From: a virus
Strand: one strand, 5' to 3'
DNA: 64,000 nt
IMG/VR virus record: IMGVR_UViG_3300047548_001122
Location: 1 to 64,000 of that record
Position 1 is the stretch's first letter. Each line of letters opens with the position of its first letter. Positions 10,487 to 35,715 of this stretch are shown here, in pieces. A program made the position numbers and the translations under genes. The notes under the pieces were generated by a model. The model was not told the DNA's origin. It saw only the letters and a list, made by a program, of their open reading frames with translations, and searched no databases.

Positions 10487-10561
10487 GCAGCGGTAGCTTA
10501 AAGGTTAAAGCGTCCGTCTCTAAAACGGACAATGTGGGTTCGATTCCCACCCGCCGCACCA
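10487..10561 (+). tRNA. tRNA-Arg(TCT)
   Basis: Anticodon stem TCCGT/ACGGA with loop CTCTAAA, T arm GTGGG-TTCGATT-CCCAC, CCA. One A-C mismatch in the acceptor stem (position 3-70). A second Arg(TCT) lies at 16749. Confidence 0.93.
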
Positions 10562-12087: not shown

Positions 12088-12184
12088 TATTGAAACACAT
12101 TTTGTATGCTAAACGGCACAGCCGCGGAACTTGAACTCCGTAGATGTGAGGTTCGAGTCCTCACCGAAGTGTGTTTCAATATGG
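12085..12184 (+). repeat. 20-bp hairpin C enclosing a cloverleaf-like RNA
   Basis: Arms 12085-12104 and 12165-12184 pair along all 20 positions. The interior has a D-arm-like hairpin, an anticodon-like arm with an 8-nt loop (GCGGA/TCCGT) and a textbook T arm (GTGAGG-TTCGAGT-CCTCAC). There is no CCA. The arms overlap the CCA of tRNA-Arg and the first two bases of tRNA-Ser. Confidence 0.8.
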
Positions 12185-14796: not shown

Positions 14797-14802
14797 AGTT
14801 TT

Positions 14803-14884
14803 GCAGGATAAGGAAAAAGCATATGCCCCTATGGAGCATGTTATACTAGTTGCTATTCAGGTTCGATTCCTGAATCCTGCACCA
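14803..14884 (+). tRNA. tRNA-like element, anticodon arm not recognisable
   Basis: Acceptor GCAGGAT/ATCCTGC, T arm TCAGG-TTCGATT-CCTGA and CCA are perfect. The centre does not give a 5-bp stem with a 7-nt loop; instead AGCA/TGCT closes a 12-nt loop. Either a decayed tRNA or a tRNA-mimic. Confidence 0.5.
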
Positions 14885-15172: not shown

Positions 15173-16151
15173 TTAATTGGGAGTATAGTCTCATTAGAAT
15201 AAGTGGCGTGAGCCACCCAAAGCAGAAGTGTCCTACACACCTGCGCCAGTGATGGTTCATCTATACAAGCCTGCTCACTAGGGCGACCTAGCGATCACTG
15301 ATAAGACCGGTGGTTGTAACAATGAAGCTGGTGTAGTGGAAAGAATTGTATGCTCAAGCGCCGCAAGGTAACGCAAGTATACAGAGAGTAACGGGTGGTG
15401 CTGACCTCACTACAAAACCAATCAGTTAGTTGGTATGAGAAAGGGTAGTGCATTTGTCCAAGGTGTTGCAACCAAGGGCTTATGTGCAGTATTAATGGTT
15501 TATGGAACTGCCGTGAGGCGTTACATGAATCGTGAAATACTACTGAGTAGCCGGCAGGCAAAAGGTACGTGGTGTGTTGTATGATGTGGATTAATAGTTC
15601 ATGTCGCAACAGGAGCAGCACATCATAGTAGGTTCGATATAGCGTAATGGTAACGCGATTGCCTTTAGAGCAATTGACTGTTGGTTCGAGTCCAACTATC
15701 AAATAAAAAAAGCAAAGACTGCTCCGGTTAGTAGTGAAAGGTATCTAATACTTGGCTCGCAAGAGAATCAAGTCTGACGTAGCTCGCAAGGTGAAATCAG
15801 TTTATATCGGAAGATTCGTAAGGTGTTAGCGCACTTGAATGGCTCGCAAGGTCAACGGGTAAGAAGGTGTAGAGTAACTATTAACGACAAGTCTAATGCC
15901 TGACTTTCAAAACGGCGATACTGGTGATAGACGATGATACCGCAAGGGTTGTCGTGGATGTCGTGAGAAGTCTGACCCGCAAGGTCTTATATAATGCACG
16001 AAGTGTCACTATGGAAGGTGTAATCTCAGCCGACCACTTACTAAAGCACATTATTCTTTCAAGAGGTTCTTAGTCGTACCTGTAGTTTGTTTTAGTGTGC
16101 TTCAGTAATAAAATTCGCGTGTGAGGCGAGAGGAGAGTTCGTACTCTCCTC
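15173..16151 (+). ncRNA. large ornate structured RNA, GOLLD-like candidate
   Basis: Nearly 1 kb without a coding gene, starting at a strong promoter and ending in a hairpin. It is packed with GNRA-capped stems: GTGGC-GTGA-GCCAC (15203-15216), CTAGG-GCGA-CCTAG (15278-15291), GCC-GTGA-GGC (15510-15519) and six or more GCAA loops, four between 15750 and 15945. A complete tRNA-shaped element lies in the middle. Large size, phage and tRNA-array context and an embedded tRNA match what is known of GOLLD RNAs; I cannot align it to the family model. Ends are estimates. Confidence 0.6.
15633..15704 (+). tRNA. candidate suppressor tRNA(TTA), no CCA
   Basis: Perfect D arm (GCG/CGC), anticodon arm ATTGC-CTTTAGA-GCAAT and T arm GTTGG-TTCGAGT-CCAAC. 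The anticodon TTA (15665-15667) would read UAA. The acceptor TTCGATA/TATCAAA has one mismatch and no CCA is encoded. It may be a working ochre suppressor or a structural tRNA domain of the surrounding RNA. Confidence 0.6.
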
Positions 16152-17905: not shown

Positions 17906-18202
17906 GCCTCGATGGTGAAATAGGTAGACACAAGGGACTTGAGATTAAAATTTGAGTGCCCTATTGGAAACGATAGGAGTAGAACCCGTCAAATTCGGTG
18001 AAAGCTTTAAAATGCTAATACCGAGCGAAGCTTAGATAGAAATATCTTTGAACGTGTAGAGACTAGACGGCGGGCATCTAAAGTGAAAGCTATGATGAAG
18101 GTATAGTCCAGACCACAAACAGGAGACTGGTAGTGAAAACTATAGTGGTAAGAAAATCCCTCGCCGCAAGGCGTGCCGGTTCGATTCCGGCTCGAGGTAC
18201 CA
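17906..18202 (+). tRNA. tRNA-Leu(TAA) split by a group I intron
   Basis: Exon 1 is 17906-17940, exon 2 is 18153-18202. Joined, they give acceptor GCCTCGA/TCGAGGT, anticodon arm AGGGA-CTTAAAA-TCCCT with anticodon TAA, a class II variable arm (CGCCGCAAGGCG), T arm GCCGG-TTCGATT-CCGGC and CCA. The intron lies between T34 and A35, the same place as in cyanobacterial and plastid tRNA-Leu(UAA). Confidence 0.9.
17941..18152 (+). other. group I self-splicing intron, 212 nt
   Basis: The 5' exon GGGACTT pairs with GAGTGCCC inside the intron, leaving the hallmark T-G pair at the splice site (P1). P7 is formed by GACTA (18061-18065, in GAGACTAGACGG) and TAGTC (18104-18108). The intron ends in G at 18152. 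It has no internal gene; the HNH gene stands just outside. Confidence 0.88.
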
Positions 18203-18319: not shown

Positions 18320-18910
18320 ATGAAAACAGTAGGCGATAAACTCGAACCATTTGTAGTAACAGGCATTAATCCTGGAAGTGACAAATTTTTTGATATTACA
18401 GAAAAATCTTTTGATGGTAAATGGAAAGTAATTGTTTACTATCCAAAAGATTTCACATTCGTATGTCCAACAGAAATTGTTGCATATGATAAATTGTTCC
18501 AAGATTTTGCAGACCGTGATGCAGTTCTTCTTACCGGTTCAACCGATAACGAATTTTGCAAACTTGCATGGCAAAATGCACATGAAGATTTGAAGAAAAT
18601 CAAACACATTCAGTTTGCTGACACTATTCGTCAAGGTTATCAAACTGGCGATACGCCATCAACACTTGGTGGAGAAAGTAACTATCGTTGGAATGAAGGT
18701 TTGATTAATCAATTAGGAGTTTTTTATGAACCAGCGGGGGCTGCTCTTCGTGCTACTTTTATTGTTGACCCTGATAACGTTATTCAACACGTTACGGTTA
18801 ACAACCTCAATGTAGGTCGTTCGCCAGAAGAAACTCTGCGTGTATTGGATGCTTTGCAAACAGGAGAATTGTGTGCATGTAACCGTACAGTTGGTGGAGA
18901 AACACTATAA
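18320..18910 (+). CDS. ahpC: 2-Cys peroxiredoxin (AhpC/TSA family), 196 aa
   Basis: Reduces hydrogen peroxide and organic peroxides in the cytoplasm using a reactive cysteine. The active-site motif FTFVCPTE places the peroxidatic Cys at 49; the resolving Cys is in ELCACN near the C-terminus (185/187). The length is normal. GGAG lies before the ATG. It forms an overlapping cassette with a 23-residue CPSC peptide and AhpD, the enzyme that recycles AhpC in some bacteria. Probably an acquired host gene that protects the infected cell from oxidative stress. Confidence 0.95.
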   Translation: MKTVGDKLEPFVVTGINPGSDKFFDITEKSFDGKWKVIVYYPKDFTFVCPTEIVAYDKLFQDFADRDAVLLTGSTDNEFCKLAWQNAHEDLKKIKHIQFADTIRQGYQTGDTPSTLGGESNYRWNEGLINQLGVFYEPAGAALRATFIVDPDNVIQHVTVNNLNVGRSPEETLRVLDALQTGELCACNRTVGGETL

Positions 18911-35044: not shown

Positions 35045-35212
35045 ATGTTTTACGCTCTTTTCGTAACATTTGTTTTGAACGGTAATCCTCCTGTAGAACA
35101 GAGATGGAAAGCATATGAAACGTTTGATGAATGTTGGGAAGCAGCTACAATAATAGTAAGAGGTAGAGATAATTTTACCGCAAGGTGTGTTTTAGTTGAA
35201 AGTAAAGAATAG
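35045..35212 (+). CDS. hypothetical protein, 55 aa
   Basis: Hydrophobic start (MFYALFVTFVLN) then a Trp/Thr-rich helix and two Cys. No strong ribosome site. It ends one base before the tmRNA acceptor segment, so tmRNA may be co-transcribed with it. Confidence 0.55.
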   Translation: MFYALFVTFVLNGNPPVEQRWKAYETFDECWEAATIIVRGRDNFTARCVLVESKE

Positions 35213-35278
35213 AATTGTTGTAATCCCTTCAAAGTGAAGGCATTCTGGACGTGGGTTCGACTCCCACCATCTCCACCA
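35213..35278 (+). ncRNA. ssrA: permuted tmRNA, acceptor piece (3' part of mature RNA)
   Basis: Contains hairpin CCTTC-AAAGT-GAAGG, then CTGGAC, T arm GTGGG-TTCGACT-CCCAC, acceptor strand CATCTCC, discriminator A and CCA (35276-35278). CATCTCC pairs with GGGGATG at 35369-35375 and CATTCTG (35241-35247) pairs with CAGGGTG (35388-35394) as helix P2. In ordinary tmRNA genes this piece lies downstream of the tag; here it lies upstream. The 5' end is approximate. Confidence 0.9.
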
Positions 35279-35368
35279 AAAGCGCAGATAGACGCTATGT
35301 TGGCTTCAGATCGCAACTAGCGAACATACGCGAGACAGGTTCCCACTACGAACTTCTGTGCTTTTGAT
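35279..35368 (+). other. tmRNA intervening segment (removed)
   Basis: Ninety nt linking the CCA end to the 5' end of the coding piece. Its ends pair over 12 bp (35277-35288 with 35355-35366), starting in the CCA, the same design as the tRNA spacers. Removal would leave a two-piece tmRNA. Confidence 0.8.
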
Positions 35369-35555
35369 GGGGATGACCTGGTTTCGACAGGGTGAGATAA
35401 TGGAGAAGGCAACACGGTAGGCGATGACCGTAAATCAAGCAAAAATAGTAACTGCAAACGATGAAAGTTACGCTCTAGCAGCTTAAGCTCTAGATGAGGT
35501 TTCGCAAGGTGTGCCTTATAATCAAAACACCTTGCACCAAATCACTTAGAGTAGA
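35369..35555 (+). ncRNA. ssrA: permuted tmRNA, coding piece with tag reading frame
   Basis: Starts GGGGATGACCTGG-TTTCGACAGG, the tmRNA D-loop analogue. The resume codon GCA is at 35439 and the tag reads AKIVTANDESYALAA up to TAA (35484-35486), ending in the protease signal ALAA. A 9-bp hairpin GCAAGGTGT/ACACCTTGC follows. No T arm occurs downstream, so the gene is truly permuted. It rescues stalled ribosomes and marks the product for proteolysis. Confidence 0.93.
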
Positions 35556-35572
35556 TTAATGATTTTCTCTAC

Positions 35573-35602
35573 TTGACTTTTGATTACATTATGATATATA
35601 AT
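35573..35602 (+). promoter_or_regulatory. sigma70-like promoter of pqqA
   Basis: TTGACT and TATAAT, 18-nt spacer. The leader contains CATGGC-TATTG-GCCATG and a strong ribosome site (TAGGAG) before pqqA. Confidence 0.8.
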
Positions 35603-35640
35603 TTCACATGGCTATTGGCCATGACAACTAGGAGAAAACT

Positions 35641-35715
35641 ATGAATTGGACTACACCTTCAGCACAAGATATGCGTTTCGGTTTCGAAATCACGATGTAT
35701 ATCGCAAATCGTTAA
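35641..35715 (+). CDS. pqqA: PQQ precursor peptide PqqA, 24 aa
   Basis: Ribosomally made substrate from which PqqE/D/F/B/C build the cofactor pyrroloquinoline quinone. The peptide shows the family pattern: W3, P6, R12 and the core GFEITMY with Glu16 and Tyr20 (E-x3-Y), the two residues that are cross-linked to become PQQ, then the basic end IANR. The 24-residue length is typical. AGGAG lies 6 nt upstream and a dedicated promoter precedes it. No other pqq gene is in the window, so host enzymes must process it. PQQ serves methanol dehydrogenases, pointing to a methylotroph host. Confidence 0.9.
   Translation: MNWTTPSAQDMRFGFEITMYIANR

Follow-up and report, generated by a model that had tools for sequence, protein, structure and literature searches.

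An intact permuted (two-piece) tmRNA gene of the beta type occupies positions 35216–35545 of the window, the 64,000-nucleotide stretch of phage DNA analyzed here, which comprises bases 1–64000 of a 214,237-base IMG/VR virus record. Its anatomy, the covariation of its helices and its recurrence among phages, taken together with what is known of tmRNA biology, make it very likely that this phage ssrA gene yields an RNA that is cleaved, alanylated and delivered by the host SmpB, and that tags stalled products and recycles ribosomes. The same record codes for a gp20 portal protein, a terminase, gp23, gp32, gp59, UvsW and UvsX, all of the T4-like type, and these genes identify the source as a T4-like phage.

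ARAGORN called a permuted tmRNA (tmRNA*) with the tag ANDESYALAA at 35186–35577, and two Rfam covariance models of the permuted type matched well above their gathering cut-offs: RF01850 (beta_tmRNA) with 160.6 bits (E = 1.1 × 10−49, cut-off 84) and RF04321 (tmRNA_permuted) with 156.3 bits (E = 3.6 × 10−31, cut-off 47). No match to the conventional one-piece model RF00023 was listed in the Rfam scan of the window, and the fold z-score of the tmRNA region was −3.7. A preliminary description, made from the letters alone, had read the locus as a phage-encoded two-piece tmRNA of the circularly permuted kind and had proposed such models as the check; their matches, along with the T4-like genes, bear this reading out. 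The acceptor half, with its G3:U70 acceptor stem, T arm and CCA, lies upstream of the coding half, and each element which that description had named was recovered where it had been placed, including the acceptor stem GGGGATG/CATCTCC (7/7 pairs, G3:U70 among them) and the P2 helix CAGGGTG/CATTCTG (7/7 pairs). Downstream of the tag, we found neither a T arm nor the acceptor half of a conventional one-piece gene, which had been named as the counter-evidence to look for. Setting aside the T-loop motifs in the tRNA/intron region (10.0–18.2 kb), GGTTCGANTCC occurs only once on the plus strand, at position 35254, and there it precedes the tag. In the predicted fold, the ends of the spacer pair as a 10-bp helix (AAAGCGCAGA/TCTGTGCTTT) that starts immediately 3' of the ACCA. 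The individual features are collected in Table 1.

Table 1. Features of the permuted tmRNA gene and its flanks (window coordinates).
Feature	Position	Strand	Remarks
55-aa ORF	35045–35212	+	No PHROG match; ends directly 5' of the acceptor piece
Acceptor piece	35216–35278	+	RF04321 and RF01850 alignments, coordinates checked
P2 3' strand CATTCTG	35241–35247	+	In acceptor piece, after the 5' segment
T stem GTGGG/CCCAC	35251–35255/35263–35267	+	T stem-loop 35251–35267
Acceptor 3' strand CATCTCC	35268–35274	+	
ACCA	35275–35278	+	Discriminator A plus CCA
Spacer, 90 nt	35279–35368	+	Between the halves; putatively excised, as in known permuted-tmRNA processing
Coding piece	35369–35545	+	ARAGORN, Rfam, fold; nominal 3' end
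Acceptor 5' strand GGGGATG	35369–35375	+	
D-loop analogue GGTTTCGAC	Within coding piece	+	
P2 5' strand CAGGGTG	35388–35394	+	
Hairpin ACGGT/ACCGT	35414–35431	+	Coding piece
Tag frame ANDESYALAA and stop	35454–35486	+	Tag 35454–35483, TAA 35484–35486
3' hairpin GCAAGGTGT/ACACCTTGC	35504–35535	+	Coding piece
Promoter-like TTGACT-18-TATAAT	35573–35602	+	11/12 match; between tmRNA and pqqA
pqqA	35641–35715	+	PQQ precursor peptide MNWTTPSAQDMRFGFEITMYIANR; PF08042, 38.7 bits (cut-off 21.1)

The tag required correction. The preliminary description had given it as AKIVTANDESYALAA, which is misread at its N terminus and five residues too long; the extra AKIVT arose because reading began upstream of the resume codon. 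In alignments to the permuted models, the tag begins with GC(A/C)AAC and is thus ANDESYALAA, with a degron-like LAA end followed directly by a stop. The ALAA ending is shared by 45 of 65 phage copies. The complete tag is one residue off ANDETYALAA, the tag of five presumptive methylotroph genomes, and is identical to that of some permuted genes of Burkholderiales (L273, L274 and L277).

Conservation and proposed function

We compared 75 distinct copies of permuted tmRNAs drawn from viral contigs, cultured phages and bacteria. Pairing within sequences exceeded that of shuffled combinations for P1 (6.49 of 7 pairs versus 5.63 shuffled, maximum 5.88), P2 (6.83 versus 5.44, maximum 5.71) and the T stem (5.00 of 5 versus 4.13, maximum 4.36). 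Compensatory changes were seen at acceptor pairs 4–6 (e.g., GGGGATG/CATCTCC and GGGCCAG/CTGGTCC), at P2 pairs 2–7 and in the T stem; of the loci compared, L002–L121 had been retrieved with a search pattern in which some acceptor-stem positions were fixed. The phages with pqqA were retrieved by a protein motif and were thus not chosen on their acceptor sequence. All 18 distinct copies from this set have G3:U70 and ACCA, a count to be read with the preference of both ARAGORN and the search pattern for a CCA end, and in 17 of their 18 distinct spacers the terminal helix is 7 bp or longer. Median spacer lengths in two sets of phages are 74 and 84.5 nt, as against 4–43 nt in ten bacterial copies.

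The tmRNA is the RNA that rescues stalled ribosomes, and the two-piece version in the window is, to judge by its sequence, probably functional. Transcription of the precursor would begin with the acceptor half, and pairing in the acceptor stem and spacer helix would keep the two halves joined until host tRNA-processing enzymes excise the spacer. The acceptor stem and P2 would then hold the two resulting RNAs together, and the acceptor piece could be charged by the host AlaRS through G3:U70. We found no SmpB gene in the 214-kb record, which may be incomplete; given this absence, trans-translation would need the SmpB of the host to bring the charged tmRNA to ribosomes stalled on broken mRNA. Addition of ANDESYALAA would then free the ribosome and hand the tagged product to ClpXP-type proteases of the host. 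The most likely gain for the phage is continued ribosome recycling at late stages of infection, once host RNA is no longer renewed. The phage also carries about 29 tRNA genes.

Fragments of tmRNA genes arise in temperate phages through integration there (PMC9004378), and the locus might by the same route be a decayed, non-coding relic, such as an attachment-site fragment, whose function is lost. We consider this highly improbable: both halves, the helices of the tRNA domain, G3:U70, ACCA, the resume region, the open tag and its stop are all intact, the spacer helix is conserved, and the covariation points to upkeep in the relatives. Little more credence is due to a modified decoy that competes with the host tmRNA instead of working as one. 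Inhibition by a phage tmRNA has been reported for mycobacteriophage DS6A (PMC11915505), but the DS6A tmRNA is CDS-less, of a type that has no tag, whereas the window tmRNA carries a complete tag that ends in a standard degron.

Phage relatives and the pqqA neighborhood

A 2022 study described two-piece tmRNAs in aquatic phages: of the 133 distinct phage tmRNA structures that it counted, 53 were two-piece, and 50 of these 53 came from marine or aquatic phages (PMC9004378). We found dozens more in IMG/VR, as well as permuted tmRNAs above cut-off in cultured phages of Stenotrophomonas, Pseudomonas and Alcaligenes. Thus, the phage two-piece tmRNA is already known as a kind, and the window gene is a further member of it. 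The OM43 phage Melnitz (PMC9004378) resembles the window phage in being a T4-like myophage of a methylotroph group with a permuted tmRNA whose nearest relatives lie outside the host's own lineage. However, Melnitz has a copy that falls with alphaproteobacterial genes and is associated with a glutamine riboswitch, whereas the window copy is of the beta type (RF01850) and adjoins pqqA. The Stenotrophomonas phages Marzo and IME-SM1, the Pseudomonas phage PaMx31 (SM1 type) and the Alcaligenes phage QDWS595 match both RF04321 and RF01850 above cut-off, like the window, but belong to other phage groups, and the tag of the Stenotrophomonas phage tmRNA is VAANDDSYTVRIAA, unlike that of the window. The permuted tmRNAs of these cultured phages mostly lack annotation in public records; the above-cut-off genes of PaMx31 (L139) and QDWS595 (L140) are among those unannotated. 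Comparison of 18 kb found no closely related cultured phage at the DNA level.

The permuted tmRNA of betaproteobacteria, reportedly recognized as a third lineage by Sharkady and Williams in 2004, shares with the window gene the RF01850 match, the order of the halves, a tag of the ANDxxxALAA kind and the spacer helix. It differs in the length of the spacer, which is 90 nt in the window, and the bacterial and window copies fall on separate branches of the tree, with weak support.

The next gene downstream of the tmRNA is pqqA. The PqqA motif QDMRFGFEITMY was found at 73 viral loci, and in 30 contigs, the window included and some of them near-copies of one another, a permuted tmRNA lies on the same strand within 0.9 kb of pqqA. 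The distance is at most 150 bases in 23 of these 30, and both gene orders occur. At 16 pqqA loci lacking an ARAGORN tmRNA, we found no permuted tmRNA above the Rfam cut-off; there, pqqA mostly lies near tRNA genes. Hence, pqqA is a recurrent neighbor of the phage permuted tmRNA. The presence of pqqA in methylotroph phages has been reported before (PMC7678222), and our literature search returned no paper tying pqqA to tmRNA in viruses. The preliminary description had singled out a phage-encoded copy beside pqqA as notable; its emphasis on the phage holds poorly, since two-piece tmRNAs are known and common in aquatic phages.

Directly upstream of the tmRNA we found no clear promoter; the 55-aa ORF abuts the acceptor piece, so the gap is too small for the tmRNA to have its own. 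The promoter-like site between the tmRNA and pqqA has counterparts in two relatives (L229 and L204), and such sites in the region are not above chance (4 versus 4.7 expected). An A+T-rich element resembling TATAAT or ATAGATAAT occurs in the tmRNA–pqqA gap of the window (35573–35640) and of five further loci (L204, L208, L218, L223 and L243). In several phages, it is followed by a short hairpin of variable sequence ahead of the pqqA ribosome site.

ssrA architecture in the likely hosts and origin of the phage gene

PqqA matches were found in 23 of 399 Burkholderiales genomes. All 12 of these that were typed have a one-piece tmRNA (194–225 bits), and none of the 12 has a permuted one above cut-off. 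Hexulose-6-phosphate synthase, a marker of RuMP methylotrophs, is above its curated cut-off in seven of the 12; six of these seven genomes are 1.3–1.4 Mb in size, several with two or three PqqA matches. Such small, PqqA-rich RuMP genomes fit Methylophilaceae, a name that we infer. On the strength of its pqqA, the phage likely has a pqqA-bearing RuMP methylotroph as host, and in these best-fitting genomes ssrA is one-piece in 7/7 and the permuted gene present in 0/7. Should the host belong to the typed methylotroph group, phage and host ssrA would differ in architecture. The beta permuted form is above the RF01850 cut-off in four of 150 Burkholderiales genomes and was found in six of 61 genomes of one Burkholderiales family (the G240 family).

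The preliminary description had suggested a comparison with the host ssrA to see if the gene was captured. As the likely hosts have a one-piece ssrA, the present host type was probably not the source of the window tmRNA. Some Burkholderiales do carry the permuted form, in part with the identical tag, but it is unlikely that the phage recently took its ssrA from the present host, given the one-piece genes of the presumptive methylotroph hosts, the lack of any PqqA match in the six G240-family genomes with the permuted form, and the position of the window copy in a tree of 116 tmRNAs, where it clusters with phage copies (a set of six, support 94/72). The one-piece bacterial copies all fall on one side of this tree (93/90). 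A search of an 84,980-species genome collection gave no bacterial twin of the acceptor piece; a looser acceptor-piece pattern matched four Rhodocyclaceae-type genomes.

More tentatively, the beta-type permuted tmRNA could be a phage-borne lineage maintained and passed on among phages of hosts with one-piece ssrA and paired with pqqA in methylotroph phages, from which the scattered Burkholderiales copies may derive; we regard this as a possibility, albeit a doubtful one. The likely mismatch suggests that a phage and its probable host can have ribosome-rescue RNAs of different gene architecture, and so that phage tmRNA is more than a recent copy of host ssrA. If phages carry the permuted form, its patchy occurrence in Burkholderiales would gain a testable source.

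Other RNAs in the window

A 212-nt group I intron (17941–18152) interrupts a tRNA-Leu(UAA) gene (17906–18202) after anticodon U34, the classic position of the cyanobacterial and plastid trnL intron. Default ARAGORN missed this gene, and its joined exons form a full tRNA-Leu(taa). An HNH endonuclease ORF lies just upstream of it and an ORF resembling AhpC/TSA-family peroxiredoxins (18320–18910) just downstream.

The linker of a GOLLD RNA (15569–16032; 205.7 bits) contains a tRNA (15632–15705) whose anticodon, UUA, reads the ochre stop; tRNAs in GOLLD linkers are known (PMC12286853). A second tRNA (10487–10561), labeled tRNA-Pyl by ARAGORN, has the anticodon CUA, which reads the amber stop. We considered stop-codon recoding as the reason for these two tRNAs and rejected it because the long ORFs use all three stops normally (TAA 87, TGA 46, TAG 14). 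Two more T-loop motifs, at 12090–12180 and 14799–14883, lie in tRNA-like stretches beyond the ARAGORN calls, which are perhaps odd or decayed tRNAs.
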